Below are positions 4,222 through 54,219 of a DNA stretch of 64,000 nt, in pieces. Below the pieces are notes generated by a model. It searched no databases. It was not told where the DNA came from and saw only the letters and a program-made list of their open reading frames with translations. The stretch comes from Urechis unicinctus (lineage: Eukaryota > Annelida > Polychaeta > Xenopneusta > Urechidae). The position numbers were made by a program, and so were the translations under genes. Every line of letters begins with the position of its first letter. Position 1 is the stretch's first letter. The stretch is taken from NCBI GenBank assembly GCA_034190875.2, contig CM067344.1:71927309-71991308 (forward strand), in the 5' to 3' direction.

Positions 4222-4891
4222 GCCCGAGTAGTATAGGTAATGGGGGTTCCAACACAGGGCCCTCAATCGACGCGCACCCCCAAGCCACCGTCTCCTTATA
4301 CTTGTTCCGATCCTTGTGATACACCTGGTTGTATGCCTCAGCCCTCCTCAGGTCCTCAAAGGCGCACAAACTGAAGACGCAGTCGACAAACACCCCGATG
4401 GTCGCCACCGGACTGTGGTGCAACCCCAACAGAACCTGAGGCTTATACATGTTCGGAATCACCCTGCCAGGACTCCGAATGTAGGGGCGCTTTATCTCGA
4501 GCAGCACAACCTCCTCAGGATGCCCCCGACAGACAGCATCCACCCCACCCCGCAGGATCGGGAGCACACAAAAGCCATCTGGAGAGTAGGCCGTTGCGTC
4601 GCCCTGAATATATACATTGTTTCCGTAGACCTTGATGTCGCACACCTTCTCCAATACCGCAATTGCAACCTCCTCAAAAGTCGTACCCCAGAGGCAGGGC
4701 GCGCTAGAGCGAACACCCTTATTGCTAGTTTTTTCAATCAGCTTCTTGCTATAGCTGCTGAAGTAGTTTTGCCCTATGATAGAGGAGTAGTCACTTCCTC
4801 CTACGCAGCCCTTCCTTGTGGTCTCCCACTGGTCCTTATTTTGCTTGACTCTGGTATGATCGTTGCAGAAAGATTTAATCGCTGCCTCCAT
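4214..4891 (-). CDS. YqaJ/lambda-exonuclease-type nuclease
   Basis: This frame of about 226 codons runs from an ATG at 4891. It shows the ordered signature of the YqaJ/lambda-exonuclease fold: GGSDYSSIIG near the N-terminus, WGTTFEEVA (acidic residue), SPDGF (metal-binding Asp), LLEIKRP (the paired Glu and Lys of the nuclease core) and YKPQVLLGLH (the downstream Gln). Such enzymes resect DNA ends and assist recombination or replication of linear viral genomes. The last codons run through the left terminal inverted repeat, and the stop at 4214-4216 lies in flanking DNA outside the element. The native C-terminus may therefore have been lost or replaced at insertion. The catalytic residues look intact and no internal stop is present. 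The gene diverges from the next one across a palindromic repeat region. Confidence 0.8.
   Translation of the reverse strand: MEAAIKSFCNDHTRVKQNKDQWETTRKGCVGGSDYSSIIGQNYFSSYSKKLIEKTSNKGVRSSAPCLWGTTFEEVAIAVLEKVCDIKVYGNNVYIQGDATAYSPDGFCVLPILRGGVDAVCRGHPEEVVLLEIKRPYIRSPGRVIPNMYKPQVLLGLHHSPVATIGVFVDCVFSLCAFEDLRRAEAYNQVYHKDRNKYKETVAWGCASIEGPVLEPPLPILLGRW
4222..4226. repeat. Left target-site duplication of the outer element
   Basis: GCCCG lies directly before the AGTAGTATAGG terminus and is repeated directly after the right terminus at 29545-29549. Polinton integrases usually leave 6 bp. Here five bases match and the sixth does not on either side. Confidence 0.7.
4227..4258 (+). repeat. Left terminal inverted repeat of the outer element
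   Basis: These 32 bases match the reverse complement of 29513-29544 exactly, and the two ends diverge inward of that. Read on the minus strand, the same bases encode the conserved tail PVLEPPLPILL of the exonuclease frame. Confidence 0.85.
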
Positions 4892-5033
4892 TATACACAG
4901 CAAACACTACTCTTTAAATGGTCGGACAGTCGGTCAATCTGTATCTACCATCAACACTTTTGCACCATCCTCAAGTTCAGTAATACGTTCTTCTGTGTTC
5001 ATACGCTCGTTTATTCAATAGTCTGATTCATAT

Positions 5034-5172
5034 GAGCACGCTATGATGCACGGCCGTGCACGTCATGATTAGTGTGCACGCTATGATGCACGGTCGTGCA
5101 CGTTATGATGGGCATCATAGCGTTTGATGATTAGTGTGCACATTATGATGCACGTTATGATTGGGGTGCACA
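5034..5172 (+). repeat. Palindromic tandem repeats between divergent genes
   Basis: The unit GCACGCTATGATGCACGG recurs from 5036 and 5076, with a degenerate third copy from 5138. The core GCACGGCCGTGC at 5048-5059 is a perfect 12-bp palindrome. ATGATGGGCATCAT at 5106-5119 is another inverted repeat. The block sits between the minus-strand exonuclease and the plus-strand gene from 5507, where a shared control region or replication site would be expected. The function is inferred. Confidence 0.7.
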
Positions 5173-5506
5173 CAGCATATTTAAGCTTATTAGTCTCTGC
5201 AAATGTAATTACCAGAAATCTAAAAAATCTTAAAAACCCCCATTTATTACCCTGTATTGGGAGAGGCATACTAAGATTGTCTCTTAGTATGATACTGCAG
5301 GACTCGAGTGCCACTGTATTTGTGTATCGTGAAGAGGTTACCCGGGGCCTCTATACTGTATACATCTACACCTACTTCCAGTACTCATCCTAGTTATATC
5401 CCCCTCTCCCCTTATAGTGGAGAGGATAGGTTGAGTCACGTAGGGTAGGAGCCGGCCAGATAACAGATAACAGTCCTTCACCGACCCTGAAACACTCGAG
5501 GTACGG
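5173..5506. other. Non-coding spacer upstream of the 5507 gene
   Basis: No gene is recognised. A short inverted repeat (CCTCTCC...GGAGAGG) lies near 5407-5427, with a purine-rich stretch behind it. A 5' leader or promoter of the following gene may lie here, but no clear TATA box is visible. Confidence 0.4.
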
Positions 5507-6223: not shown

Positions 6224-7404
6224 TAGGTCTCGGAGTATCAGTAGGATAACTCCCCCCACCACCACAGCTGTGGCCCATACATGTTCTGCCATCCAACCAG
6301 CCACCTTTGCAGCTGACTTAAGCAGCCATGATACGATGGATCCAATGATTCCTGGAAGAGCAGCTGCTGTCTTACCGGCCAGGCCCTTCAGGACGTTTGC
6401 CAAGGAGTTCAGCTCTTTTTTAATCCATTCCTTTAAGCCGGGCTTATCAGCTGGCGGTGGCGTTGGTGCTGGGGTTGGACTAGTGCTCCCTCTGCCCGTC
6501 AAAGCAACTACCAGGGTCGAGATTGCCAATCCAATCGCAGTGAGGATGGTAGCGATTGTTATGCCTTGCTCCCGGAACAGGGTGCGCACATGCTCAGCTA
6601 GCGTTGTGTCCTCTTTAATAACCCTACTGATTGTTTCCCGGAATCGGTTAATTTGAGACTGTAATATTTTTCGGTTTTCAGAGGCAGCCTCAATACGGGC
6701 ACTGCGAAGATCCTGCATTCAGCAAGCTCATTTGCTTGGAATCTCCATGCTGGATCTCCTTCCCTCTCTGCCTCCTCAAGGCTTGCCACTTTAGCTTCTC
6801 GTCGGGCTTTATCCCTTTCTAACTCACTTATCTTAGCTAGGTTGTTCACCAACTCACCCCTCAGGGTCTGCATAACCTTGTCAAGCCCTACAAGCTCTCG
6901 GAATGTCAGACCATCCGTCTGTGTGCTCACGTCTACTATAGCGTTATGAAGGCCCTCTATGAAGCTTGTCTCTTCCACACCAGGCCCTCTCCCAGCTGTG
7001 GCTTCAGGTCCACTTATTTCCATACCCTCTGAGGCTTTGACGGCTGCTTGGTCAATGACTTGGAGAGCCCGTACTTCCCTTTGCGACACCGCTTTTCGGG
7101 ACCACTCAGTGAACCCCAAACCATCACCAACGGCCTTAGGCCCCCCACCTTTACTAGCTATTGTTTGAAGTGAAAGCGGGGCTTTGGTATAATAATTAAG
7201 TCGGGGTACTACTGTCCTCTTACAAGTTACTTTGTATAAGCGAGAGGGTGTGTGGCCTTTTTCAGCTAATGCATCATAATAATCATTGACAGCGCCTATA
7301 ACGAGTCGGCCGTCCTGCAGTATAGACTGATACACCCCAATGTCCTCTTCTGTAACAGGTGGGAGATGTCTATTGATGACAGCGATGTGTACCAGTGTTA
7401 CCAC
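6197..7404 (-). pseudogene. Coiled-coil and membrane protein of the outer element, frameshifted
   Basis: Two adjoining minus-strand frames appear to be one gene. The 5' part (7404 to about 6720) has a basic N-terminal region and then a charged helix rich in Glu, Arg and Lys (residues about 180-230), as in a coiled coil. The 3' part (6718-6197) continues the helix, then has a membrane segment (TIATILTAIGLAISTLVVAL), a proline-rich linker, an alanine-rich hydrophobic region and a last membrane segment (TAVVVGGVILLILRDLL). A one-base shift near 6718 breaks the frame. I recall similar predicted proteins from marine invertebrate genomes but no assigned function. A role at the virion or cell membrane is inferred. 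The N-terminal end overlaps the truncated capsid gene in opposite orientation near 7366-7404, which suggests a rearrangement there. Confidence 0.6.
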
Positions 7405-8461
7405 GACTTATGGCGGACTGCACAGGAGAGACAGGGCCTCCAGTACCAGGGCATTGACACATCAGATGACAGAAACACAACTAAGATACGAATGGGGACA
7501 GGAGACAAGGATGAGACCCAGAAAGAGACAGGGCCTCCAGTACCAGGGCATTGACACATCAGATCACAGAAACACAACTAAGATACGAATGGGGACAGGA
7601 GACAAGGATGAGACCGAGAAAGAGGACCTGGCCATAGCCTATGTGTATGGTAACAGGTTCTACGTTCCGCTTGACTATAAACTCCTCGAGAGCCACATGC
7701 CATTCTACCAGAGCGCGCTTGATGACAGACTGGAATACGAGCTCACGTTCAACGATTACAACCGTGTGATTCACGCAACAGGCGACACAGACGCCAGCTA
7801 CAAAATTGATGGCATCTCGCTGGAGTATGACATGGTTACCCAACCAGATTTGGCCCGCATGATACGCACCCAGTACACAGGTCGGCTCTCGATTCCGTAT
7901 GACCGTGTACTTCGTCACAGGAAGCTTGTATATAATAAAAGAGATACACTGTGGAACATCAACCTGAACGTGCCGGCTTGCAGCATGAAGGGCATCCTAC
8001 TGCTCTTTGAAGACCCCCAGGGCGCCTCATACGCTAGAAAGACAGAGTCGTTCTACAACCCAAAGATTACAAAGGTCGAGGTGACCATTGAGGGCATCCC
8101 CAATCAGCTCTATGCCCAGGGCATGCGTGGCTACCAGCAGTGGGACGAGGTGAAGAAGGCCTTTGCAGCAACGAGTAAACGAGACCCCAGTGTAGTAATA
8201 GTAGTAAATGACTTGGCATTGTCGGACGTTTCCCTAGGAGAGTACCTAACCAGTAAGTATGCTCTGTGACTCGACTTAAGGACGAGTGATGACGACCAGC
8301 TGCATGGTAGTGGTAGGGCCGTGGAGAATGCGTCTGAGGGTGTCACCATTCAGATCACAAAAAAGGCAGAGGCGGCCGGTGCATTGAACGTCTAAATGTA
8401 TATTGTTATGGATGCACAGCTTAATATTAAAGATGGCAGGTTCGTCAGCGTAGTTTACTAA
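7366..8461 (+). pseudogene. Major capsid protein-like gene of the outer element, truncated and interrupted
   Basis: From ATG 7366 the frame begins MSIDDSDVYQCYHDLW. A 97-bp tandem duplication (7427-7620) shifts it, and the main body runs in another frame to a TGA at 8267-8269. In-frame coding resumes past that stop, meets a TAA near 8394, and ends at about 8461. Recognisable stretches include VYGNRFYVPLDYKLLESHMP and TLWNINLNVPACSMKGILLL. The decayed copy at 56.75-57.76 kb is collinear and extends further upstream, so about 60-100 N-terminal residues are missing here. I assign it as a double jelly-roll major capsid-like protein from its position directly before the packaging ATPase and from recalled similarity to Polinton-like capsid genes. 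The fold itself is not proven by the sequence. Confidence 0.6.
7427..7620 (+). repeat. 97-bp tandem duplication inside the capsid gene
   Basis: The segment starting GAGACAGGGCCTCCAGTACC recurs 97 bp downstream with only a few mismatches (for example GATGAC against GATCAC). Because 97 is not a multiple of three, the duplication moves the reading frame and disables the capsid gene. Confidence 0.9.
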
Positions 8462-8468
8462 CAAGGGC

Positions 8469-9010
8469 TTGATGACCGATGGTCCCTGTTTGGCAATTGT
8501 TTGTTGGCAGACAGGATGTGGGAAAACCGCGTTCATCCTCGACCTACTTGAAGGGCCCTTCTTCGGCGCCTTCGAGCATATTGTAATTCTCTGCCCTACC
8601 ATACGTTTCAACGAGGCCTATCAGACGCGGTCATGGGTATGGCATGATTCAGAGGTGTATGTGGTTGACCCCGGGGAGCGGCTCCATGACCACTTAAGGG
8701 CTTTCTACCACTGCTTTAAGGGCGAGCCTACCCTCTACATTATTGATGACTGTTCGGCAACAAAGGCCCTAACCATGCGCAGCAAAGTGTCTGGGTCCTC
8801 ATCCAGAAATTCAACTCTGTGCTGAAGGATCTACGTGAACAGACCCGTTGGATGGCACTTTTCCACACCAAGGATCGTGACGCCCTACGAGAGAATGATG
8901 TAATTCCGACGACAGAGGAACGTACCACAGTACGCCATCTACTAGCAAAGACCAAGCACGCAAAACTGCTGCTGAAGTCTGATCATCCCACTGGATATGC
9001 CGTCGATTGA
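8469..9010 (+). pseudogene. Packaging ATPase of the outer element, with internal deletion
   Basis: The first frame contains a Walker A loop, WQTGCGKT, and a Walker B strand, TLYIIDD, separated by about 90 residues, as in A32/FtsK-HerA-like packaging ATPases that drive DNA into viral capsids. After Walker B the sequence loses roughly 35-40 bases relative to the copy at 56.3-56.5 kb, near 8776, which shifts the frame. The C-terminal part continues in the next frame from about 8780 to the stop at 9008-9010 (LLAKTKHAKLLLK). A further small shift separates the start from the preceding capsid tail. It follows the capsid gene directly, the usual Polinton order. It cannot make a full protein as read. 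Confidence 0.7.
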
Positions 9011-9663: not shown

Positions 9664-9671
9664 TAGGTAAC

Positions 9672-9995: not shown

Positions 9996-10053
9996 CCAGC
10001 GAAGTCAGCCCCTCCGGACGCTCATTTAAAGGACCCGTTTTACATGGAATAAG

Positions 10054-10293
10054 ATGACAACACCAATTACTGATGGGAAAATCCTCGTCAACGCGCTGTA
10101 CCACGGTGCAGTTGTTTCCGGTATATCAATAGGTTATGCCAAGCTTGCTAAGATGCTTCTGGGTGGTGGCGTGCCACGTGTTGATTTCACCCTACGCGAC
10201 TTGGCTATGACTATTGCCGATGTATCACTAGCTATGGTCACAAAGGATATGCTAATTAAACAAGGAATCTTACCAGTTGATATACTGAAATAA
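10054..10293 (+). CDS. Small membrane-associated protein of the outer element
   Basis: The 79-codon frame starts at ATG 10054. It has an N-terminal hydrophobic stretch (ALYHGAVVSGISIGYAKLA) and a second amphipathic/hydrophobic helix (LRDLAMTIADVSLAMVTKDM) ending in a short polar tail. Its TAA stop overlaps the ATG of the next gene (TAATG at 10291-10295), so the two were probably translated or transcribed as a unit. It is intact. The family is known to me only as an uncharacterised companion of this element type; a membrane role is inferred from hydrophobicity. Confidence 0.55.
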   Translation: MTTPITDGKILVNALYHGAVVSGISIGYAKLAKMLLGGGVPRVDFTLRDLAMTIADVSLAMVTKDMLIKQGILPVDILK

Positions 10294-10427
10294 TGGCCAC
10301 ACTCGCGTTACTTGTTGGAGGTGCTCTTGTTAACGCCTTTGTATTCTCTGGGAGCAACTTTTTATTCTCTAAATTACAAAGCGGCCAAGTAGACGCGGAA
10401 TGTAAACGCCTTGATATGGCAATCGAG
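10293..10427 (+). pseudogene. 5' part of a membrane-protein gene split by the inner Polinton
   Basis: ATG 10293 opens 45 codons beginning with a hydrophobic segment (LLVGGALVNAFVFSGSNFLF). The frame ends exactly at the target duplication ATCGAG (codons 44-45), where the inner element begins. The matching 3' part is at 24640-24859, and the frame is preserved across the insertion when one copy of the duplication is discounted. The inner element therefore landed in a coding gene. Function is unknown; the ends are hydrophobic and the middle is a charged helix. Confidence 0.75.
10422..10427. repeat. Left target-site duplication of the inner element
   Basis: ATCGAG here is repeated at 24640-24645, directly outside the two inverted termini. 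Confidence 0.95.
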
Positions 10428-10475
10428 AGTAGTATAAAGATGTACCCCTTCATACCCCTTTTTTGACGTCGAACG

Positions 10476-10664
10476 ATGGACGAAGTGGATTGCGTAATAT
10501 ATTTTTCGCTGACGATCGCTTCCGGATATTTCTTTCACCTTTTGGTGACCTTAGCAGGCTCACGCGATGTACGGTATTCGAGTGAGTTCATTTGGGGGCT
10601 ATGTCCTGAGTTGTTTATTGTTTTGGTGACCTTCGACCTCATGGAGGCGCGCTATTTGGGATGA
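10476..10664 (+). pseudogene. Terminal-repeat ORF, left copy (frameshifted)
   Basis: The frame MDEVDCVIYFSLTIASGYFF is identical to the copy in the right terminal repeat at 24331-24591. The extra G near 10660 ends it early (ARYLG stop), whereas the right copy continues 25 codons. Hydrophobic stretches alternate with a few charged residues, so a small membrane protein is possible. It may also be chance coding in a conserved terminus. Confidence 0.4.
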
Positions 10665-10728
10665 GGTCATTCTATTTTTGGAAAGTGTTTCCAACTGCTG
10701 AGCTAAGCTAAGTGAAGTGATGAGGGTG

Positions 10729-10771
10729 TATATAAACAGGCTAGGATGATTTGAGTTCAGTTATAACCATG
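10729..10771 (+). promoter_or_regulatory. TATA-box promoter in the left terminal repeat
   Basis: TATATAAA at 10729-10736 lies 33 bp upstream of the inward-reading start ATG at 10769, with an AGTTCAGTT-like initiator region between. The same sequence, inverted, lies before the polymerase gene at the other end (24306-24313). Confidence 0.65.
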
Positions 10772-11599
10772 GGTGGGAAACGCCAGCTAGAAGCTTTCAA
10801 TGATGTGAGCAAACGCAGTAGACCGATGAGTGATGCGGACTTGTTAAAAGCCGTGGAACAGATTGAATCTGAGCATGTGAAACCTCTATACACACGATAC
10901 TTTGCACAGTATTCGATAGTGGTTTGGAATAAAGATGTAGTGTTTTTGAAAAATAATTTCATGAAATGCCACATAGAGTTGGGGATGAACTGTGTATTGG
11001 ACTGTGGTTACGAAATAGCTGCTGTCACAGAAACTTTGGAACAGATAGAAGCAGGAGAGGAGAGTCGTGCCGAAGTCTCTATTGGTGCAGACGTGACGAT
11101 GAGTGTACGAAATCCGGTCCCTATGGTGCTGATAAAGAAGAGTCACGTGACAATGCGAATGGACGGTTACTCGTGGTATATGTTTGTAGAAGCGTGGGAG
11201 GAGTTAAAACAGCTCTATGGAACCCATGTGGCGAGAGGAAAATTAATGGAGGAATATCTCACGGTGGTGTACACAGACACGCTTGTCGATTTAATAGAAG
11301 CTCTTATACCAGAAAAATGCCATGGATGTCAGATCGACCACCCGAGTCAGCGACAGTATAATCTTTGTTTGATGGCAGAACCTGAAGAACAAGTTCGGAT
11401 GTGTATGGCGGATGCTTTCGAACGTGTTGACGAACAATATGTATCAAGTTTATGGGAATTAAGTATAGCTTTAATCGACCCCTGCCCCTCGCGGTTGGAA
11501 CGTAGCAAATGGTTGTATGTGGACTATAGGAAATATTGGTTGGAGTCGGTGAAATCAGATATTGAAATACGTATAATTAACAGATTGTGTAATAAATGA
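10769..11599 (+). CDS. Accessory protein with shared terminal leader and Cys/His motif
   Basis: I choose ATG 10769 (CCATGG context), just behind the TATA box, giving 276 codons. The first 33 residues (MGGKRQLEAFNDVSKRSRPM...) nearly match the N-terminus of the polymerase at the opposite end of the element because the terminal repeat extends into both genes. KRSRP is a plausible nuclear-localisation cluster. Residues about 190-205 carry CHGCQIDHPSQRQYNLC, a possible zinc site. The same architecture recurs in the broken gene at 12441-13230, so the two are paralogues. Function is unknown. Polintons often have lineage-specific genes at this end. The frame is intact and ends at AATAAATGA, giving an overlapping poly(A) signal. 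Confidence 0.65.
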   Translation: MGGKRQLEAFNDVSKRSRPMSDADLLKAVEQIESEHVKPLYTRYFAQYSIVVWNKDVVFLKNNFMKCHIELGMNCVLDCGYEIAAVTETLEQIEAGEESRAEVSIGADVTMSVRNPVPMVLIKKSHVTMRMDGYSWYMFVEAWEELKQLYGTHVARGKLMEEYLTVVYTDTLVDLIEALIPEKCHGCQIDHPSQRQYNLCLMAEPEEQVRMCMADAFERVDEQYVSSLWELSIALIDPCPSRLERSKWLYVDYRKYWLESVKSDIEIRIINRLCNK

Positions 11600-11703
11600 G
11601 TGAAAATACAGGACTGTGTTTTTTATTTGGAATGTATGTTATAAAGAGTTAAAATTTGCTGGGTGGTCATTTATGGCTAAGATAGTCTGAGAGTGACATC
11701 AAC

Positions 11704-11937
11704 ATGACGGATGCATATAGCAGGTGGTCTGTTTTAAAAGACAAGTTACAGATGCATGCACAACTAACTCGAGAACTGAGAGACAATAAGATCTATAGAC
11801 AAATTAGTATAAATCAACAGCGCTTGATGGTGCAAGGTTACGATTTTGATACGGTGCTTAGTAAAGCGATCGAAGCTAGAGAGTGTTTAATGGATCGTCA
11901 GTTAACTGTGTTCGTATCCGAAGATGAGATGGATTAA
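11704..11937 (+). CDS. Small unknown accessory protein (77 aa)
   Basis: ATG 11704 opens an intact frame encoding a mostly helical, charged peptide (LKDKLQMHAQLTRELRDNK, acidic C-terminus SEDEMD). It sits 104 bp after the first accessory gene on the same strand. Bases 11795-11830 recur with 3 mismatches at 20317-20352, inside a polymerase intron, so part of this coding sequence has been copied elsewhere in the element. No family is recognised. Confidence 0.45.
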   Translation: MTDAYSRWSVLKDKLQMHAQLTRELRDNKIYRQISINQQRLMVQGYDFDTVLSKAIEARECLMDRQLTVFVSEDEMD

Positions 11938-12018
11938 AGTAATTATAAATATCTAATTATAAATATCGGTTAACAACAAGTTTACTGGCAGAAGAGTTTG
12001 AATCTTTAAAGCGACGAC

Positions 12019-12273
12019 ATGGATACTTGTGTAGAATGTGACGAATGTCAGAGAGTCGCTGAGACCCAACAACCATATAGACCCAAGTCACCTGCTCAGG
12101 GTAAACACAGAACCCTGAGGTTACGGCGTTGTCCTCTGTGTCAATGTGGGTTTGTAACGAAGGTGCTTTTGACCCAACACTTGAAATATCACTGTAATTA
12201 TAAGCTCTACATATACAATCGAAACTTAAGGAAAACAACAGGCACAACAAAGCAGAGGAAAGTTGTGACGTAA
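12019..12273 (+). CDS. Small C2H2 zinc-finger-like protein
   Basis: ATG 12019 opens 84 codons. Residues about 38-60 read CPLCQCGFVTKVLLTQHLKYHC, which fits a C2H2 zinc finger spacing (C-x2-C-x12-H-x3-4-H/C). An N-terminal CVECDECQ adds two possible metal-binding pairs, and the C-terminus is basic (KTTGTTKQRK). DNA or RNA binding is the likely role, by family. The frame is intact and in line with the other left-end accessory genes. Confidence 0.6.
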   Translation: MDTCVECDECQRVAETQQPYRPKSPAQGKHRTLRLRRCPLCQCGFVTKVLLTQHLKYHCNYKLYIYNRNLRKTTGTTKQRKVVT

Positions 12274-12440
12274 TCGGAAAGCTTAACTTCCACGCTCGAA
12301 GAACCCCACAACCTGGTGTGCGTGTGATTTACCGGATCTGAAATTAATTCGTCACGTGATCATGAAAAAAAAAAAGCGCTGACATTAGCTCGATCAGGGG
12401 ATAAATAAGCGAACACGGACCGATTTTTGTTTCATTCAGG

Positions 12441-13230
12441 ATGGGTGAGGAGAACAGCGAGCAGTATGATTACATTGATGGACCGTTGTATACCAGTCGC
12501 CGTAGTGGTCGCTTTCAAATCACACAGTGGTGTAGTAACCCAGATGATTTGATCAATGATTTACACATTCGCGATCGATGGTAATAAAATTACCCTCAAA
12601 TGCCTTTCTCAGAAGCAGGACGGCTCTTACATCGCTCACCGTATCGTTGATTGACGTGGAAGCTGGTCAATCAGACGTCGATATGGAGGTCACAGTGTTT
12701 GACAATGCGATTGGTCGAGTGAAAGCCCCAGTCCCCTATATTGAAATTACCCGTGAAAGCGTGACCATGCTCTTTGATAGTTTCAATTGGTGGCAGCTCA
12801 TAAAAGCTTACGAAAATTAACAGCCCGCAGACAAAAGATGGATGACCAAGGAACGTCGCACGATGGGTGGGATATGATAATCAGCCTTTACAGTAATTTG
12901 ATGAAACCGATGCTATCTGACATAGCTCAAGAACCATGCGAAGAATGTGGAACGGGGGTATGTCAAGCCGAGAACCAACAAAAGATGTATTCACATTGCG
13001 TTGGAAGAGCCTTGGATAAGGTGGATGAAAATCACGTCACTTTATTATGGCGCTTGCTGTGTGAGCAACACAATATGACTGAACTATGCCTTTGGCTCTC
13101 TAGAGAATATCGGCATAATATGTTAGGTTTTTGTGTGACCGCCGAACACTGGTCTAAAGTCTTAATGGGGGAACCATATGACTGTAAATATAACAAAATT
13201 ATTAGACGCATGAATATATATGATTGGTGA
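12441..13230 (+). pseudogene. Frameshifted paralogue of the 10769 accessory gene
   Basis: ATG 12441 starts MGEENSEQYDYIDGPLY, but this frame stops at about 12583. The continuation lies in other frames. The segment 12578-12820 (VKAPVPYIEITRESVTMLFDSFNWW) matches VRNPVPMVLIKKSHVTMRMDGYSWY in the 10769 gene. The segment up to 13230 has CEECGTGVCQAENQQKMYSHC, equivalent to its Cys/His motif, and the same DKVDENHVTLLWRL core. At least two shifts separate these parts. An AT-rich TATA-like GATAAATAAG lies about 40 bp upstream. It is a duplicated accessory gene that has lost its frame, or a gene damaged by assembly indels. Confidence 0.6.
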
Positions 13231-13311
13231 TTGAATAAAATGGTAATAATGTACTTGAGTTGAATTTCTTTTTGAGTTCTACTTATCACGACACTATCTA
13301 ACTATCCTATC

Positions 13312-13319
13312 TATAAAAA
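13312..13319 (+). promoter_or_regulatory. TATA box upstream of the packaging ATPase
   Basis: TATAAAAA lies 30 bp before the ATG at 13349, which leaves almost no 5' leader unless transcription starts between them. Confidence 0.5.
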
Positions 13320-13348
13320 GAGGAGGGATCTGTGAATGATAACTTAGC

Positions 13349-13954
13349 ATGAGAATGGATCGAGCCTTAAAACACCCCTTTAGTTGCGTGATGGCTGGTC
13401 CGAGCGGCTGTGGAAAAACTTACTTTGTGAGTGAGTTAATCAAAGGTAGTCACATTGAGCCACCACCCGACCGAATCGTGTGGTGTTTCGGAGAGTGGCA
13501 AGCAATGTACACTCAAAAACCTCACGTGGAATTTGTAGAGGGGTTGAATTTTGAGACAGACCCCCAACAAAGAACCTTGTTGTTCATCGATGATTTGATG
13601 CAAGAAACTGACGAACGCGTCACTCGCCTATTCACCAAAGGGAGTCACCATGGCAATCTTAGCGTGTTGTATTTAGTACAAAATTTATTCGGAAAGAATA
13701 AAGAACATCGAACAATCAGTTTGAACGCTCATTATTTAGTTGTATTTAAGAACCCTCGGGACGCTTCACAAATCATGCATTTAGCCAAACAAATGTACCC
13801 GCGAAACATCAAGTATGTACAAGAAGCCTTTTCGGATGCTACTTCACAACCCCACGGTTATTTGTTTATCGATTTGAAGCAAGAAACGCCAGATCACTTA
13901 CGGTTACGAACTGACATACTACGACCCAATCAAGTTGTATACCTACAGAAATAA
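13349..13954 (+). CDS. A32/FtsK-HerA-like genome-packaging ATPase
   Basis: The intact 201-codon frame has Walker A GPSGCGKT (residues about 17-24), Walker B LLFIDDL (about 75-81) and a downstream sensor-like VLYLVQNLF followed by TISLNAHYLVVFKNPRD, the typical order for the A32-like branch. The enzyme hydrolyses ATP to pump element DNA into the capsid. ATG 13349 is used; a second in-frame ATG follows two codons later. Length fits Polinton ATPases. It is one of the genes in this element without visible damage. Confidence 0.88.
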   Translation: MRMDRALKHPFSCVMAGPSGCGKTYFVSELIKGSHIEPPPDRIVWCFGEWQAMYTQKPHVEFVEGLNFETDPQQRTLLFIDDLMQETDERVTRLFTKGSHHGNLSVLYLVQNLFGKNKEHRTISLNAHYLVVFKNPRDASQIMHLAKQMYPRNIKYVQEAFSDATSQPHGYLFIDLKQETPDHLRLRTDILRPNQVVYLQK

Positions 13955-14003
13955 ATACCGTCGATCATCGGGCGACCGCCATTCTTATCGTTAGACATAG
14001 ACC

Positions 14004-14336
14004 ATGGCAGAGCGTCTCAGAAAACACGCTGATACATTACGAGTAATGGCTAAAGCCAAACCCTCTGTCAATAGGGCTTTGATTCACACGGCTGACAAAG
14101 AATTGATGAATTGTCTATCTGAATGTGCCCTCAATGTTTTAAAAGGAAACGTATCCTTGACTTCAGTTCAGAAGCGTAAATTAACCCGACACAAACAAGG
14201 TCTGCGCGCTTTGATCTCACCTAAAACTAACGTCAAGAAAAAGAAAAGAGTATTACAAACGGCGTTTTTTCTCCCGGCGTTATTAGGACCTATTTTAGGT
14301 ATCGCTGGTCCGTTGTTGGGCAAACTGTTCGGTTAA
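14004..14336 (+). CDS. Small basic Polinton protein with hydrophobic C-terminus
   Basis: The intact 110-codon frame encodes a strongly basic protein. Residues about 40-62 (LSECALNVLKGNVSLTSVQK) look conserved, a lysine cluster, NVKKKKRVL, follows, and the C-terminus is glycine/leucine-rich and hydrophobic (FFLPALLGPILGIAGPLLGKL). The composition suggests DNA-binding core protein with a membrane-active or capsid-interacting tail. Similar proteins recur next to the ATPase in animal Polintons, but I know no proven function. The stop lies just 2 bp before the next start. Confidence 0.6.
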   Translation: MAERLRKHADTLRVMAKAKPSVNRALIHTADKELMNCLSECALNVLKGNVSLTSVQKRKLTRHKQGLRALISPKTNVKKKKRVLQTAFFLPALLGPILGIAGPLLGKLFG

Positions 14337-14338
14337 TT

Positions 14339-16001: not shown

Positions 16002-16026
16002 GATCGGGAACAAAAGCTTCATTAGG

Positions 16027-17036: not shown

Positions 17037-17055
17037 GTCTCAAGACATCACCATC

Positions 17056-19345: not shown

Positions 19346-19508
19346 ACAACGCGTGTTGAAAATATACGATGTTTTTTATTCTTAGTTTCTCACACAGCAT
19401 TTAAACATCAATTTCTTACAGAGCGCACATCCATCGATTACATAATACCTTAACTTCAATTTATAGCATAATAACACATATCAATTTCTTAAATAGCATA
19501 TTAACGTA

Positions 19509-20355
19509 TCACACATCTAACAGTTTAGTGCTTACACCATCTGCACTCACAATTCTCTTGGGGTAAAAATAACTTAATCCATCTCTAATGTGCGTATACG
19601 AATACATTGTGTTATTGTTAACGCGAAAGCCACGGTTCACACCGCGACCCGATTTTTGTTCTCTCAGCACATTCATATATTTCTCCTTGTTCAGGTCGTT
19701 TTGACGCTTATTGAGTCCTTTACACGAGGTTTTATCCGTAGTTCCATAACAGTAATAGGTTTTACTGCACAGTCCGATAAAACCATCTCCACTCCACTCC
19801 TCTTTAAATAACCCCGGGGTACGTTTATCATATTTTTGGCGGGTCACACAGCACGGTTGAGGTACCCACGGGGTTCCGTTCGTTTTACACTGTATAAAGT
19901 CGTTGTTGTGATCATCACACGCTACAGCTGGCAACCACTGAGGGTAATCTCGGTAAAATTGTTCTTTCATGTTGGGTTTGATGACATCTGTTAGATGACT
20001 ACTACTAAGGGCGATATAACTACTATCAGTGTCCATCTGTACATAGGCAAAATCAGATCTCGCGACATACTTGTCAATAAAATCATAGTAAAATTCAAGC
20101 ATTCTTAATTTGGCGTATTGATAAACAAAATAGCCTATTTGTTGGGGTAAGTTGAGATTTATGAAGGTTTTGGCCATGTCGATTTCAAACAGGTTGGGGG
20201 TTAATTCGTTCAAGGCTATGAATCTTTTGTCGTTGATCAATTTCTGACCCTCTCGGTAGTCGGCGTATCTGACATCACGGTGTTTAGTTTTATCCGTGAC
20301 GCATTTACCTACAAACATAGACAAATTAGTATAAATCAACAACACTTGACGGGTA

Positions 20356-20453
<98 letters not shown>

Positions 20454-23400
20454 CTTTTTTCAAATCATAAATTTGAAATAAATTTGAAAATAACAATTAA
20501 ATAAATATATTTTACAATAATACATTTTGGTATGTTTACCATAGGCCGAATTTCCAAGTAGCTTAAAAGTTTCGGCTATAACGGTCTGACTCGGGTCGAC
20601 ATCACCCCCACGTCTACACACAAACAAGAACATTATCAAAAATAAAATACAACGCTTGAAAGAGTATAACATATAACTCCATTCGTGTATTCGTACATAC
20701 CTGGCGTCTGATACGGTCTCGGCAAATCGTTTGAAACAGGCTGTGGGTTCGTACTCCAGTGTTTGGTATATTTTTGTGATCACCAGACCATGTTCCAAGT
20801 ACCATTTCAGTAGTGGGCTAGCAAGCAATATTTTCACACCTTTGTAGCTCCCTATCAACGTCCGCCATTCCGTCTATATGAAAATAAATAATAAAAATCG
20901 TTATGACATCATAATGATCGCAACAAAATTCCTTATGATCCCCACGCCCCTTGTCACCTTGTGTACTCACTTTCACAATGTCCCGTTGTTCAGCATAGTC
21001 TCGCATAAAGGGTCCGATTTCATCTCGGGTCAGTTCAATGTTTTTGAATATAGGGGTCATCTCACTAAAATAGTCTTTAAGAGTTCTGGTACGTGTATAT
21101 CTACTTCAGCCATTCCAAAAAAGGTTCCGTCACGTATATTGGCTATGAGCTGTTTTTCCGTCAAAGGGGCTCGTGGTGGTTGAGGTCGACTGTACGTGAA
21201 CGGTTTGATGTGAGGGTCTGTTTTCTGTTTTTTCGTCCATTCACAACCCCATTCAACTACGACATTATAGCCTAATCCTCTCAAATACTGGGTATTTCTT
21301 TCTGTTTCGGCATATAAATCACTCATTAGTTTTCCATTGATGGGGCTATGGGTCAATTTCAGACACGGACAACCATGCCATACACATCCGTGAAACTGAT
21401 ATACTGTTTGCGTTTCTTTGCACCAACCGTCTACGGGTAATCGCCGGGCACCTATTCTTTTTTCCCCTCTGTTTAGACGGTGTTGTATTTGATTTTGTGA
21501 GCTGTGTGCTATCCAAGCCAACCATTCGTCCGCTATTCCGCCTTTTCGGGTCTGAATTGGTTTAAAATCAGGCGCGTGACGTCGGGTTGGAAAGTTGGCT
21601 GGCATGGGTTGAGACAAGGCCCACAGATACAAGGCATTGGCATCATAACCCACGATTCCTTCACACAACTTCGCTTCATTTCCGTTCTGTTCACGCCTGA
21701 TGTAAGTTTTTTCTTTTTTTTTGGTAACGATGAAAGATGATTGAGGGTCCGCCCACTATTCCATTTTTTTTTATCAACCAATAGATGTCGTTGTTTTTTC
21801 GTCAGGTAAGGTAAAATAATCTTCCAAGTCTTGAAATAAATATCGCATGGTTAATCCGGGCACTGATATTCCATCCTTCAACATATCTATACCTCTCTCA
21901 CTGTAAAAACGACTCTGTTTCTCTAGGTTTCCAGAAACGGTTCGACATCTAAATTGTTGTAATATATCAAAAAGTCTTTAAAAGTCTGCATATGACCTGC
22001 TTCCCACGCTTCTTGACATTCAGCGTATTGGTCTGCTGTAATGTTTTCTTGTTTTAACGCACTGTAAAAAGCTGCATGGGGTGGTAATTCTGTGTTGTTC
22101 AAACGATCGAGTGTCACCCATTCATACGGGAAATATCCCTTTTCTGTTCGCATTGAAAGGCTCGTAGGTATTTGTCGTATGTATATCCAGGTGCAATAAA
22201 GTTGGTGATATCCAAAAACCGTACATGGTCCGTTTCAATGCACATGAATGAGTTATTTCGTTTGATGGTATACTTGATTGATGAATGTTCTTGCAGGTAA
22301 GTTGTCAACGGTATTTTCACAACGTTGAGGTCATAATTCGATGAGTTGAATCCGACTAACGGTAATACATGTAAATAGTTGTCGAATTTGTTCTGTAATT
22401 TCTGCAATGGATGTTCTCCCTTGACGACCGGGTCCAGTTGATACGCTTCATTGATTTTCTCTTGTAACTGGGCTAGGGCAGCTTCGTATTGAACAAGCAT
22501 CAGTAGATAGGCGGCGTTTGATATCTCCTCTATATACATCATCATCCTGTCAATCAATGTTTGTGCGTTTCCTTCCGTTACAAAGCATTTTGGTTCTGTA
22601 TAATCAGGTACATTGCTGCATACACTCACTGATAACGGTACGTGTTTTTGGTCCCAGGTGACTTTGGGTGAATTGACGGGTAGGTTGTCTTCTCCAAAAT
22701 AACTTTCAAAATCATAGGTGGCTCTGTAAGGGTAAATACCGTCTTCTATTTCGATTCCTTCGTCCCGTAACGCTTCAAAGATAGTGGGTGGTAGATGAAA
22801 AAAACACCGACTGGGTACTTGTATTTCGTTTCCACAGTACATTTGTTTTCGTGGCGATGTAGTTTTTTTCTCACTTTTCCACAGCTTCTGACAGGTACCA
22901 CAAATATATGATTTGCTATAAAGGTCAAAGTTTTTTTTATGTAACTAAAGTGATTTTCGTGCAGGTTCAATTTCAAGGTCGAGGCGAATTTTGTACGCGC
23001 TTGACCAAAGTAGCTACTGAAAACACATATAACAAAACGATCACATCTCATATTTCCATTTCGATATCAAATGATTACATCGTTTATGTTGTTTACTTCT
23101 GTTTAATCACTACAAGACACACTTACTTGATTCTCGTCTAGCGTATACACGGTGACATTCACTTTGAATTGTTTTGCTAGTCTTTTCGACATCTTCAAGA
23201 GGTACACCCGCAAATGTTTTTTTTCTTTTGTTTTGGGTAAGCAGTCTTTAACAATGTTTTTGCTGCATTCTCTAGACTCGTGAATTTCGCTCCTCTGTGT
23301 AAGGCCAGTGCCCTGAAAAAGCACAATCGGTCTTGATACGGTTTACCCGTTTTTAGACTTCGCTCTAACAAGTTGATGGCTCTGTTTGTTTACAGGTGTT

Positions 23401-24273
23401 CCGGCATAATGGGTGGTGGGTAGCCGATCACGTGATCTTCGATTGGGTTCACAAAGATGGTCAAATTAGTCACTTCCTCTACACTCCATTTCGAATCCGG
23501 TCGTTGGTTCTGGGCGTAGGTTAAAATGTCTGTTTGTGTTATTTCATCTATAGCCCTGTCAAAATCATCGACATTCCGTACGACTAGAGGGGTTGGTAGC
23601 ATTCGATGGTTATTGACGGACGAGTGAAAGTACCGCAATTCATCTGTTTCTTTGTGACGTAATAAGAATCCATAACTCTCGTTGATTTTAAAGGCTGAAT
23701 CGCATTCCTCAAATATATACTGGTTGAGGTTGGGCACATCTTCTGATAAACTATAATTGTAAACAGTTTGCAGCTTTCCAAATCGCGTATGAGTCCGTAT
23801 AGCTCTTTCATTCGCAGCCAAGACAGCTTCTGTCGACATAATCATCGATAATCTGTCAATATAAAGATTTCCGTCATTCCTCAATTCTACCGGTAATAGA
23901 CCTATCCTGTAATAGACCTACCCTTAGCGTTGTCGACTGCAGCGCCATTTCCAGTTTGTGTCGGGGGTGTGTGTTGAGCGTTGTTTAACAAATCCAGTGC
24001 TGCATTGACCTGTTCGATTGCATAAGTGTCCATGGCGGCGTGCAAAATATCTTCGTCTCCCGTCAACACTGAAACACACACGCGTAACAAAAATAAATAA
24101 ATAAATAAATGACGTATACGTGGTAATTCTATAATTCAGATATAGAAAATAAAATCATACTCACTGCTTTCCATCTCGATTTGTTCTACCGCTTTTAACA
24201 AGTCCGCATCGCTCATCGGTCTACTGCGTTTGTTCACATCATTGATAGCACCGAGCTGTCTCTTCTCAGCCAT
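19509..24273 (-). pseudogene. Protein-primed family B DNA polymerase with introns and several frame breaks
   Basis: The start is ATG 24273 behind a TATA box in the right terminal repeat. Clear introns are 24164-24069, 23126-23017, 20970-20874, 20700-20614 and 20539-20309; another is likely near 21780-21690. Motifs in order: YDFESYF (exonuclease), a Cys/His-rich FHGCVWHGCPC, GYDANALYLWALSQPMP (motif A), KLLGNSAYG|K (motif B, split by an intron) and YVQMDTDSSYIAL (motif C), all with canonical acidic residues. It would replicate the element from a protein primer. Damage includes a 17-bp tandem duplication near 23890-23920, a stop at 23390-23392, and shifts near 23217-23224, 22929-22936, 22145 and 21930, several in homopolymers. 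Its first 33 residues match the 10769 protein. Confidence 0.88.
20354..20451. repeat. (AT)n microsatellite inside a polymerase intron
   Basis: An uninterrupted AT dinucleotide run of about 97 bases lies within the intron 20539-20309 of the minus-strand polymerase. It makes this intron more than twice as long as the others. Confidence 0.95.
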
Positions 24274-24305
24274 GGTTATAACTGAACTCAAATCATCCTA
24301 GCCTG

Positions 24306-24313
24306 TTTATATA
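24306..24313 (-). promoter_or_regulatory. TATA box of the polymerase gene
   Basis: TATATAAA on the minus strand lies 33 bp upstream of ATG 24273, a mirror image of the arrangement at 10729-10771. Confidence 0.65.
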
Positions 24314-24330
24314 CACCCTCATCACTTCAC

Positions 24331-24591
24331 TTAGCTTAGCTCAGCAAACCATGACGATATATCCGAAGACATAGTGAAATCACTTTCCAAAAATAGAATG
24401 ACCTCATCCAAATAGCGCGCCTCCATGAGGTCGAAGGTCACCAAAACAATAAACAACTCAGGACATAGCCCCCAAATGAACTCACTCGAATACCGTACAT
24501 CGCGTGAGCCTGCTAAGGTCACCAAAAGGTGAAAGAAATATCCGGAAGCGATCGTCAGCGAAAAATATATTACGCAATCCACTTCGTCCAT
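24331..24591 (-). CDS. Terminal-repeat ORF, right copy (intact)
   Basis: The 86-codon frame starts MDEVDCVIYFSLTIASGYFF and ends SSDISSWFAELS. It overlaps the terminal repeat completely and reads inward like the genes behind it. Two hydrophobic patches (YFSLTIASGYFFHLLVTLA and ELFIVLVTF) suggest membrane association. The left copy is frameshifted. Whether it is expressed is unknown. Confidence 0.4.
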   Translation of the reverse strand: MDEVDCVIYFSLTIASGYFFHLLVTLAGSRDVRYSSEFIWGLCPELFIVLVTFDLMEARYLDEVILFLESDFTMSSDISSWFAELS

Positions 24592-24639
24592 CGTTCGACG
24601 TCAAAAAAGGGGGATGAAGGGGTACATCTTTTTACTACT

Positions 24640-24645
24640 ATCGAG
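24640..24645. repeat. Right target-site duplication of the inner element
   Basis: ATCGAG matches 10422-10427 exactly and forms two codons of the interrupted outer gene. Confidence 0.95.
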
Positions 24646-24859
24646 CAGCTTCAATCTGCTCAGGCAGCATGGGCCAAGAAGCGAAATGAGCGCTTAGACT
24701 TCATCAATGAGCAACTCCACCACCAGGGACAAACTGAACTCTGAGCCGCAGCTTTCAGACTTCTACGAGCCCTCAGATGGTCAAAAAGGGCGTGAGGTGG
24801 CGTTCATCATAGTGGGTATGGCTGCGACTGGGCTGGTTGCATACAGGCTTGCTATGTAG
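24640..24859 (+). pseudogene. 3' part of the membrane-protein gene split by the inner Polinton
   Basis: The frame resumes with a charged helix (LQSAQAAWAKKRNERLDFIN) and reaches TGA near 24741-24743. A second frame overlaps from 24743 (EPQLSDFYEPSDGQKGREV) and ends with a membrane helix (VAFIIVGMAATGLVAYRLAM) and TAG at 24857-24859. A shift or small deletion therefore also damaged the gene near 24740, apart from the insertion. The combination of helix and membrane tail recurs in uncharacterised companions of this element type. Confidence 0.65.
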
Positions 24860-24890
24860 GTCATTTTGGAGACTCGGGCTTTAACTTTGT

Positions 24891-25859
24891 ATGGATCGTC
24901 GCATGCAAAAGATCTACTATAGTCCTAATGGCTACTGGAAAGGCATTACAGCTATCAAGAAGCTTGCAACGGAAGCAAGGGTTTCTGAGGAAGTTGCCAG
25001 GGGGTGGCTAACAAAGCAAGCTATATGGCAAATCTACCTGCCAGTGCCCAAACACATTCCCAGACCAAAGTTTGATGTCCCTGTCCCTAACGACGTGCAC
25101 CAAGCCAATCTCTTATTTTTTCCTCATGACGTTGTGAAGCGCCGAACTTACTAGTATGCCATAACTGTGGTGGATGTGGCCTCACGCTACAAGGCGGCCG
25201 AGCCATTGACTACAAGGAAGGCTAAAGAGGTCGCAGGTGCACTCAAAAGAATATACAAGCGAGGACCACTGGTGTGGCCTAAACTACTTCAGGTGGACCC
25301 CGGGCGGGAGTTTATGGGAGCAGTGAATCAGCTGTTAGTAAAACATGGAGTATCAGTCAGACGTGGCCGTATGAATATCCATCAAGACCAGGGTATAGTG
25401 GAGCGCTTTAACCAAAAACTTGCTGAATGACTCTTTGGACACCAGTATGCCATAGAGTTAAGGGGTACTGGAAAACGATCCACTGAGTGGGTCTCTCGAC
25501 TGCAGGCTGTAACCGGTTGACTGGGAAAAACCTAAGGATGTTATAAAGGCAAAACGAGTTGCACACAAGCCCTCTGCAGTCGTACCAGGGCGCCGCTGGG
25601 GGTCAAAGAGCAAAAGCTTCCTTCTGATGTTGGCGTTTGCTACCTCTACCAGCCTGGTGAGGCAGAGCAAGACCGCCGGCAGCGGGCCACTGACCCTGTG
25701 TGGTCAATCAATGTTTACCGGGTTGGACGCTCTGTCACTAAACCTGGTGAGCCTGTACTATACTATTTGTTGGATGGACCGCTCGGTGGCTTTGTGAAGG
25801 AGGAGCTGCTTGTGGTACCGTCCGATACCCAGCTGCCACCAGACGGTATTACCAATTAG
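24891..25859 (+). pseudogene. Integrase of the outer element, catalytic Asp lost and several stops
   Basis: ATG 24891 starts MDRRMQKIYYSPNGYWKG. The first frame stops at TAG 25152-25154. The core continues VDVASRYKAAEPLTTRKAKE with LLQVDPGREFMG (second catalytic Asp) and QGIVERFNQKLAE (catalytic Glu), then meets TGA at 25428-25430. The C-terminal part (GEPVLYYLLDGPLGGFVKEE) is readable to TAG 25857-25859. At the first catalytic position the sequence reads HQANLLFFP: the expected Asp is Asn (AAT). This retroviral-type integrase differs clearly from the inner element's and has no visible chromodomain. It would be inactive. Confidence 0.8.
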
Positions 25860-25880
25860 ATAAAAGAAAGGTCGGCAATA

Positions 25881-26463: not shown

Positions 26464-29301
26464 TCAAACAGCGATTCAAGGTATTGGGCGTGGCGCAGGT
26501 GTTTCTTAACCACAACCTTTTTTACGCCCTTTGCTTTTTTGATTTCCTCCTGGGTGGACATCAGGATGGAGTACATCTTTGGGCGCAGGCCTACATACTC
26601 CTTTGATGGGTACACCGCCGCACTCGTCCTTCATCTTTCCTAGAACCTTCTTGTTCTCCTTGCTGTGGAGCGGGTGGGCTGGGTTGTAGTTGCTGGTGTC
26701 GAATAGGTCACTGTCTTTTTTCATGTCGGCGTAGATGTCTGGTGTGCGGATCTCCAGAAGGAGGGAGTTGGTGTCGATGTAGAGTAGGTTGAGATCGCGG
26801 CCGTACTAGGGCTTCATGGTGTTGTAGTAGAAGTCGTACATGAGGTGCTTGGACAGGTCGAGGATACACATCCCCACGTAGACTCGGCGGTTGAGGACCA
26901 GGTGGGCCTTGTGGATGTGGATGGCGGCTAGGTCGTCGTCAAATATTTTCTGCCAGGCAAAGGAGGGGCTGGCGATGAGCTTCCTTATTTTGTTGCCGTC
27001 TGCAGTACGGACCAGCTTCACGTCAAACCGCTTGCGGAGGTTCTCCATGGTCATACCGAAGACAGAGTTGTTCATTAGTTTGTAGAGGTCCTTCTCAAAG
27101 TCACTGGTTGCGGCCTTGCGTAGTTCGGTATTCTTCCGGATGTATGGCTCCATCCAGGGGCTTTGGGTGAAGGATAGGGCACGGTGGATCTTGGTCAGCC
27201 TCATCCCCAGGGGCAGATGCAGTTTGAGGTTTCTGTAGTGAAGTACGTACTTCTCCTTGTTCCTCAGGTTCGGAACCAGCTTACCCCAGCTGTCCGGTGA
27301 ACTCGTACTTGGGAAGAAGGTTTTGCTGGTAGTCTGACAGCCACTCGCGTTTGGCGTGGTGCCGTCTGACTTCATGCTATGCCGTCCCTGAAGGCCTTTC
27401 TCGATGAAGCTGCTTTGGCTAAGTTCCAGCTCTGAGGCCTCGAGGGAGGCCAGGAGGAGGAACTGTGCGCTGTCTATGAAGCGAAGCTGTCCTAGGGATA
27501 GGGATATGTACTTCTCCATATTGTTGGGTATATAGTTGATGTCCCCCTCTACCTTGCTTGTGCCCTGCATTAGGAGATGGCAGTCATAGCCCCTCAGGTT
27601 ATGGAAGACCATGGGGATAGGGGTTGTCTTGGGACTCAGCCTAAGCTTTAGGTTGCAGGCGTTGTGGGCTGGCCCTCTCTACTTGCCGGTTATGTGGCAA
27701 TGTCACGGACCCAGTCGGTTCCGAGTGGTTTGCTGCAGACGTCGTGTCATTGGGTTGCGTCTTGTGGACTCTGTTGGCTAAGTCTCGGGTCATCCGCATG
27801 GGGACTGGCTTGGAGAGTACTGATTTGATCTTTTTCTCCTCTTGCTGTAAGGCCTTGAGGAACTTCTCCACGGCGTCGCTTCCCCTGCAGATGACTGGGG
27901 GTGAGGTCTTCACGTCGCATCGGACTACTATGTATGGTACCCGCAGCCCTGGGTTCCTGGGTCTTCTGGGTGTTGCAGCTTTTCTGGATTGAGGGCTGGT
28001 CCTGGGAGCTTTACTGTGAGCGCCTCGAAGTCTGCGTAGATGACGTAGGGGGCTGGAAGTTGCTTTTGCCAGTTCTGGAAGGTTAGGATGTTCTTTCCCT
28101 CCTCGGGCATGTCTACTCGCATGGCAGTCTGGCCTATGCCTGCACACTCGGGCTTGTGGGCCAGGAGCAGCTTTTCGGTTGTGTGCCCGTGAAGGCAGCA
28201 CTCGCAGAAGAACTTGCGGCCCTTGTGCTTTGTCTGGTTGTAGAGGAGGCGGTTCAGTTTTTTGATCCAGCTGTAATCTGGGTGTTGCTCCTTTCGATGA
28301 GCATGAGGTTTATGAAGTTGCCGGGGTGTTTGCTAATGCAGTGGACCATGACAGTTTTCCCGTCCCAGCCAAATACGTTCAGGCCTCTGTCCAGAGCGGT
28401 TTTCGATATTTCCGACGTGGGCGACTGGGGTTGGGTAGCACACGCCTGAGCCCTCTAGCTTATCCTTGAGCCATTGGATGTTGTACTTTGATGCCCGCTG
28501 TGGGTTCTGGGCAACTGGGTGGATGGCGCGTCGATGGACCATAGTATGCAATGGTCATCCCGTTCTGCACGTTTATGATGGCCCCCTTGTTTCCTACTGG
28601 TGGTGGTAGGGGGAGGTAGGAACCGCCATTGAGTGGTTGATACTTGGTGATGTCGAACCAGATGGTTTCTACTGCATCGAACATTCACCCAGAACCAAGG
28701 TTTACCCACTTCTCCAGCAACTCCTGGATTTGGGGCCGGCCGGGTCTATCGCGGAGTCAATGTCTTCTTTGCCTAGAACCGTTTGCTGCTTGGTTCGTAG
28801 GACTGGCTCTGTGTACTCAGTGACACCATCTTTGTCAGTCTTGTAGAGACTTACTTTGACTGCGAGCTGGATTTGAGGCAACCTAGCTGGTTCAGCTCCT
28901 CGGCCAGAACTTTACGAACCTGGGGTTGCACTCCTTTCTGGAAGGTAGGTCTGGGGCGTAGGGGTGAGTCTTGGGGACGTTCATGACCCAGCCTTGCAGT
29001 TGGTTGTTGATGGCCCGCTTGGTTCTCCTGAATTTGAGGCGGGGAGTGGGGACTGGTCTGAGGCTTGTTCGGGGAACTGGGACTGGCCTTACGAGGTGGA
29101 GTGGTTTCCTGGAGGCGGGCCTGGGGTGTGGGGCCAGTGCTTTTACCACTTCAGACCAGAGTCGGGGGGATGGAGTCGAGCGGAGGGGTTGGGTCACGGT
29201 CCACCATGGTTCTCAGTCTTGTACGTCCTGTCGAGAGCGTTTTTCTTTTCGAGTGCCGCAAGGGCGACCTTCGAGCGTGGGTAGGGCGTGGATTTCAGCA
29301 T
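26418..29301 (-). pseudogene. Family B DNA polymerase of the outer element, decayed and catalytically altered
   Basis: The start is probably ATG 29301 (MLKSTPYPRSKVALAALEKK). N-terminal and exonuclease parts are readable in pieces (APYVIYADFEALTVKLPGP near 28050, FHNLRGYDCHLLMQG near 27600). An internal deletion removes the region between the exonuclease domain and FIEKGLQG near 27400. Motif B is DLYKLMNNSVFGMTMEN. Motif C reads LLYIDTNSLLLEI, with Asn for the second aspartate of the usual DTDS. Stops and frame changes occur throughout. The family, with its FHNLRGYD and LMNNSVFG signatures, differs from the inner element's polymerase. Replication of the outer element by its own enzyme is no longer possible. 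Confidence 0.82.
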
Positions 29302-29512
29302 AGTCAGCTTGAACTTGTTTCGCGCATGTGTTGTGGGGCGTCATTACTATGATGTGCTGTTAGTCTAAAAGGGCGACAAATTACGAAAAAAGGAAGTCGT
29401 GGCCCCGGGGTCGGCTGCCCTAACTTAGTCTGTTGGAAATATGGTTGCTGACTGGTTGGATGACTCCCTGGTGCGACTCGTGGCCCCCTGCCCCCCGCGA
29501 CTCATTGCTACC

Positions 29513-29544
29513 CCTGTGTTGGAACCCCCATTACCTATACTACT
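29513..29544 (-). repeat. Right terminal inverted repeat of the outer element
   Basis: It is an exact inverted copy of 4227-4258, ending TACTACT. It is followed directly by GCCCG (29545-29549), the partner of the left target duplication. Confidence 0.85.
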
Positions 29545-29649
29545 GCCCGTCGTTAAAAGTTGTGTGGAAAACAGCCAAGCCATCAAGATAACAATAGTTA
29601 ACAAGTCTGCCAGTAGTGCTGTAATATATTTCGTGATTTTAAATCAATG

Positions 29650-54209: not shown

Positions 54210-54219
54210 AGAAATTCTC

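Follow-up and report, generated by a model that had tools for sequence, protein, structure and literature searches.

A 64,000-nt window of the Urechis unicinctus genome, analysed within that species' own 1.19-Gb assembly, was found to carry a virus-like transposon of the Polinton type (the outer element) interrupted by a second one (the inner element), with the features listed in Table 1. Each element is bounded by terminal inverted repeats (TIRs) and by a target site duplication (TSD) of its own, and the two nested sets of inverted termini and direct repeats described in an earlier sequence-only reading of this DNA were recovered exactly (GCCCG around 4227-29544 and ATCGAG around 10428-24639). 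Without its insert, the outer copy measures about 11.1 kb. The alignment of the inner TIRs spans about 465 columns (420 identities, 18 mismatches, 27 gap positions), the first 230 nt containing 2 mismatches; the inner element combines long, AGT-starting TIRs with a 6-bp TSD. GC content is 37-38% in the flanks, 50-53% in the outer element and 42% in the inner one. As a control for chance, five Markov-resampled windows were scanned for inverted 9-mers with a direct repeat of 5-8 nt outside them, which yielded 13-20 pairs per window and a longest arm of 12 nt, as against 33 nt for the outer pair. As the scan seeds on nine exact bases, it is blind to the inner pair, in which the first mismatch falls at TIR position 8; this pair was recovered by a repeat finder (237 nt, 99%).

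Table 1. Features of the nested elements, by position in the window
Feature	Position	Strand	Remarks
Outer Polinton	4227-29544		perfect 33-bp TIR (33/33), 5-bp TSD GCCCG
Outer TSD, left copy	4222..4226		GCCCG
Outer TSD, right copy	29545..29549		GCCCG
Outer TIR, left	4227..4259	+	33 bp, identical to right TIR; starts AGTAGTATAGG
Outer TIR, right	29512..29544	-	33 bp
Junction of left TIR and YqaJ interior	4258..4260		about 2 nt (GG) shared, by eye
Truncated YqaJ-type viral recombinase gene (outer)	4214..4891	-	Pfam PF09588, E=3.5e-9; last codons are TIR and flank
Outer open reading frame (ORF), 250 aa	5471..6220	+	hydrophobic C-terminus; no Pfam match
Outer major capsid protein candidate	7331..8266	+	relatives, and structure model of a relative
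Outer packaging-ATPase fragment	8454..8822	+	Walker-A-like sequence; weak PF04665, below cut-off
Outer gene, polymerase-like ORF by eye	9106-9663
Interrupted small outer gene, 5' part	10293..10427	+	45 codons
Inner TSD, left copy	10422..10427		ATCGAG
Inner Polinton	10428..24639	+	14,212 bp; TIRs, 6-bp TSD ATCGAG
Inner TIR, left	10428..10866	+
Inner packaging-ATPase-like gene	13349..13954	+	A32-like; weak match to PF04665 (E=0.0047), below cut-off
Inner rve integrase with chromodomain	15060..16001	+	PF00665 8.3e-12, PF00385 6.3e-10, both above cut-off
Inner capsid candidate ORFs	17869-18984		no Pfam match; 18577-18984 without PDB sequence match
Inner viral-type cysteine protease fragment	19031..19342	+	PDB 6lj9 (African swine fever virus, ASFV, S273R) E=2.6e-4; PF02902 (C48) E=0.013, below cut-off
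Inner B-type DNA polymerase candidate, several open pieces	19512..23917	-	DTDS-containing ORF
Inner TIR, right	24176..24639	-
Inner TSD, right copy	24640..24645		ATCGAG
Interrupted small outer gene, 3' part	24646..24744	+	32 codons and stop
Outer rve integrase core	25155..25427	+	PF00665 E=1.8e-7, 31.8 bits (cut-off 32.6)
Outer B-type DNA polymerase candidate pieces	26809..28332	-	PF03175 on one broken piece, below cut-off

The inner element interrupts a small gene of the outer element after codon 45, its TSD being codons 44-45. The gene is thus split exactly between codons, as the sequence-only reading had noticed, although one insertion in three would meet a codon boundary by chance, so that this has no evidential weight. 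The same reading had the frame resume after one copy of the duplication, which is borne out for 32 codons to the right of the inner element, but an early stop follows and about 74 nt are missing just downstream. In sister copies from the same assembly the gene encodes 140 aa and is open throughout in at least 8 of 29; the 73-75 nt absent from the window after 24731 are present in 20 of the 29, sisters L013, L014, L016, L022 and L030 have roughly the same short length there as the window copy, other lengths were seen in L011, L023 and L034, and L039 was unmeasurable. The split gene of the window has been changed twice, and the second change, the loss of about 74 nt, may not be private to this copy.

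These sister copies also provided an empty-site check for the inner element. The query was a stretch of 361 bases starting with the right TSD copy, and the best 40 of 2193 candidates were scored; 30 loci were cut out, one being the window itself, and in each of the 29 remaining sister copies (about 3.3 kb each) the left half (10028-10427) and the right half (24640-25000) were placed separately. In 23 of the 29 the halves adjoin with an overlap of exactly 6 nt, corresponding to a single target site, which reads unchanged as ATCGAG in 17 of the 23 and carries point changes in the other 6 (for L025, L028 and L029, all among the 23, the left match ends 2-3 nt early and was extrapolated). No match to the inner ends was found in any of the 29 loci. 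Because so many sisters join the two halves at a single site and none matches the inner ends, the inner element is an insertion at a site that is still empty in sister copies.

The lengths of the duplications were compared within each family. Inner-family ends were sampled as the best-scoring of 1341 candidates, giving 30 ends (28 plus the window's two), among which nine pairs, the window included, share a contig and are no more than 40 kb apart. Eight of these have an exact 6-bp TSD (ATCGAG, CAGCGA, GGTAAT, ATCAGT, ACGGGT, AACCCC and, twice, AACGCT), and as the two AACGCT pairs have duplicated flanks, seven are independent. The ninth pair gives CACCAG (6 bp) if its left end has one extra AGT and a 7-bp repeat if it has two extra bases. 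As separate observations on this family, one end (L057, G000:C8:10956547) reads with an additional AGT, which is what slippage at a repeated terminus would produce, and termini at G000:C3:8996081, 9003011 and 9009938 share one orientation at spacings of about 6.9 kb, possibly as a tandem array. A 6-bp TSD would be expected of a Polinton, but the outer family has one of 5 bp, as seen in the window and, outside it, in 3 of the 22 end pairs tried (L005/L042, L006/L044 and L095/L096, the three TSDs being CCTTC, ACATG and TGTTA), and none of those 22 pairs gave a TSD of any other length. The rve cores of the two elements share 29 identities, with 54 mismatches and 10 gap positions (29/83 aligned residues). 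Because TSD lengths, integrase cores and GC content differ, the inner and outer elements are, judged by their sequences, two families and not one, and the stagger length appears to differ between them, as expected of different integrases.

The locus is thus very probably a pair of nested Polinton/Maverick elements of different families, of which the outer integrated first and the inner later; the claim of a Polinton inside a Polinton is backed by the 23 paralogous empty sites and by two TSD lengths that recur within their families. An outer-family element would have entered host DNA by way of a 5-nt staggered cut (GCCCG) made by its rve integrase, and an inner-family element would then have entered the small outer gene, presumably in the chromosomal copy, at the boundary of codons 45 and 46, by way of a 6-nt staggered cut (ATCGAG) made by its chromodomain integrase. 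In addition, the stretch from left TIR position 33 to the middle of YqaJ has gone from the outer copy, leaving a TIR of 33 bp. The exact insertion mechanism put forward in the sequence-only reading is consistent with these data, although the staggered cut by an rve integrase is a step that we infer. It could be supposed instead that the arrangement is an assembly chimera of separate repeats, given that both families are repeated: a 24-mer from the outer terminus occurs at 641 places in the genome (up to 2 mismatches; reversed control, 0) and a 19-mer from the inner terminus at 58 (up to 1 mismatch; control, 2), these being counts of termini, some of them internal copies, and not of elements. 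Elsewhere in the assembly, an apparent right-right element (L090/L091, G000:C13:4469714-4475397) was rejected because its flanks are mutually reverse complementary over 20 bases, as an assembly error or an inverted duplication gives. Two junction pairs with matching, family-typical TSDs are, however, unexpected from a mis-join, the window contains no N, and a chimera is considered scarcely credible.

Several points weigh against nesting as described. The 29 sister copies are the best-scoring of the 2193 candidates and not a random draw, and the exact overlap is missing in 6 of them (the site is altered in L013, L022, L024 and L038, the left half was not found in L018 and the right half was not found in L039). 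An exact TSD is likewise missing from 19 of the 22 other outer-family end pairs, of which 12 are ends 158-818 bp apart, mostly no simple elements, while in most of the rest the two ends cannot be assigned to one copy. Finally, the empty sites that speak for nesting are paralogous ones from a single assembly.

Regarding the order of events, the earlier proposal stands in that the outer element preceded the inner one at the sequence level, although the inner element may have struck an outer genome before the latter's own integration. In that event, the inner element would have inserted into an extrachromosomal (viral) outer genome and the composite would then have integrated as a unit, which suits the virus-like genes of both elements and would produce TSDs that look alike. 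The right host flank of the outer element, moreover, occurs once in the assembly, which thus offers no outer-only allele, and an empty allele for the outer insertion was likewise not found in this one assembly. Such a composite is nevertheless thought improbable, as no sister matches the inner ends at the site and none of the 28 other sampled inner ends adjoins outer-copy DNA, no second composite having been seen, although a genome-wide junction search was not part of the analysis. The 1.5-kb flanks of those 28 ends contained no match to the outer copy of the window or to a third, decayed outer-family copy in the window (54215-57463, - strand), and no preference of the inner family for outer-family DNA is evident in this sample. 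The third copy consists of six pieces of 72-87% identity with capsid, ATPase and polymerase remnants, between which the segment holding the split gene and integrase was not found. Later insertion of the inner element into an integrated outer copy is the reading retained here.

The outer left end was investigated with the first 474 bases of the outer copy as the query, the best 40 of 1515 candidates being scored. In the 39 besides the window, alignment begins no further out than base 29-45. For the right end, an unbroken alignment that includes the last base was obtained at 8 of 39 scored places outside the window. The 27-nt junction between TIR and YqaJ occurs once in the genome, with no other place at up to 3 mismatches. 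In all seven sister loci read, the YqaJ frame runs past the break point of the window, and a more distal terminus with the start AGTAGTATAGG or a similar one is present; its extra distance is about 490-930 bp in L003, L004, L006, L007 and L008, the five measured. Given this private junction and the longer left ends of the sisters, the left subterminal segment next to TIR base 33 has been lost in the window copy. Position 4227, which had been taken as the outer left end, is therefore exact as to TIR and TSD, but it is a non-original terminus, formed by a deletion-type junction into YqaJ. Polinton TIRs are expected to reach at least 100 bp, and it is because of this loss that the outer one has just 33; in sister copy L005/L042 it spans about 146 columns. 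Dating by TIR divergence was dropped, as the outer TIR is too short and the inner one meets diverged gene copies beyond about 240 nt.

One way in which this end might have arisen is that a broken genome, in the course of protein-primed replication, regenerated its left terminus by end repair with a copy of its right TIR and then integrated in shortened form. The left and right TIRs agree at 33/33 positions, including positions that vary among sisters, the sister subterminal sequences can be sorted into a small number of classes, a single copy sometimes having one class at its left end and another at its right (L006/L044), and the junction, as noted, is unique, all of which would fit. A plain deletion in an integrated copy with a left TIR of the same class gives an equal result, however, and such a left end exists (L006), so that regeneration is held to be possible but unlikely. 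It is similarly doubtful that the outer family as a whole rebuilds its ends, the TIR of the other end being copied onto an internal break to yield deleted but integrable derivatives and mosaic subterminal classes; if this were true, the process would have been caught in the act in the window copy, whose 33 identical bp adjoin YqaJ directly. Elsewhere in the outer family, some elements seem to have ends consisting of a module of about 255 bp with an inverted terminus copy on either side: at L078-L087 and L089, outer-type termini stand in inverted orientation at distances of 227-255 bp, one flank (gagggtcacagcttt) hardly varies from pair to pair, and a TSD is absent. Such pairs were rejected as Polinton-derived miniature inverted-repeat transposable elements, since in 10 that were fetched one flank was nearly the same and none had a TSD.

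The gene content of the outer element was assessed by profile, sequence and structure comparison. Residues encoded by 7694-8266 of the capsid candidate have 2885 relatives, one of which sits in a metagenome-assembled genome (MAG) of Thiodiazotropha, a lucinid-clam symbiont. With the predicted structure of a relative, the first Foldseek matches were the double jelly-roll capsid proteins of Paramecium bursaria chlorella virus 1 (PBCV-1), mavirus and an iridovirus (best E=4.2e-5), for a poor model with a mean predicted local distance difference test (pLDDT) score of 47 and TM-scores of at most 0.35; these matches support, short of proof, a double jelly-roll major capsid protein. The N-terminal part of the same gene contains a 97-bp tandem duplication, 98% identical, at 7427-7620. 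The ATPase fragment contains a sequence resembling the Walker A motif, and the rve core was counted as an rve-type integrase though its score lies just under the cut-off. The polymerase match covers 26809-27612 (E=7.1e-5, 22.3 bits, cut-off 25.8), and a PDB search with the outer polymerase piece gave no polymerase match. In viral contigs, no relatives of the outer capsid protein, the inner ATPase or alignment A1 were confirmed. Among genome contigs, one 4.6-kb relative of the outer element (locus L001) was found in a MAG labelled Diapherotrites archaeon, matching the outer capsid, ATPase and the gene at 9106-9663; neither half of the split gene matched it below E=0.1, and its presence in an archaeal-labelled MAG is probably animal contamination.

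In the inner element, the integrase has 6513 relatives at E<=0.001, the best being 82% identical and the two named ones coming from Littorina and Liolophura, and the match to ASFV S273R indicates a cysteine protease of the adenovirus type. The DTDS of the minus-strand ORF is presumably a B-type DNA polymerase motif, and the pieces of this candidate gave no polymerase match in Pfam or PDB. Their fragmentation may reflect introns or decay; a long (TA)n run at 20354-20450, between two of the ORF pieces, may mark either. Tandemly duplicated genes of about 200 aa were also seen at 16249-17852 (ORFs at 16251 and 17056), with DNA repeats 77-83% identical.

A phrase search of open-licence literature for a Polinton described as nested in or inserted into another found no paper, though a report of such a case may still exist. 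The nested pair is a well-documented further case of a known kind, namely an unexceptional nesting within an animal genome rich in repeats. Its value is that nature has left a clean record of how a member of one Polinton family integrated into a member of another, proven by sister copies of the disrupted gene. Two families in one genome with 5- and 6-bp TSDs and different integrases make a link between integrase type and stagger testable, and it is this difference, together with the left-end junction, that deserves specialist attention.

Polintons, according to PMC4028283, are elements of 15-20 kb with genes for an rve integrase, protein-primed B-type polymerase (pPolB), ATPase, protease and capsid. 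The window elements resemble the Polintons/Mavericks (polintoviruses) described there in their rve integrases and in their candidate genes for B-type polymerase (in pieces), capsid, protease and ATPase, as well as in their AGT...ACT termini, TIRs and short TSDs. They depart from that description in the 5-bp TSDs of the outer family and in the 33-bp TIR, YqaJ nuclease gene and smaller size of the outer copy once its insert is removed. For Polinton-like viruses, PMC12220804 gives TSDs of 5-6 bp, and it describes retrotransposons nested in Polinton-like viruses or virophages (cryptophytes, Guillardia, Cafeteria); there, as in the window, a mobile element breaks a gene of an integrated virus-like element, but the guest is a retrotransposon, whereas in the window it is a second Polinton. 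Intact vertebrate Mavericks, according to PMC8097293, have (AGT)2...(ACT)2 ends and a 6-bp TSD. Unlike these, several window genes are broken or in pieces, but in end motif and in its 6-bp TSD the inner family is like the vertebrate Mavericks.

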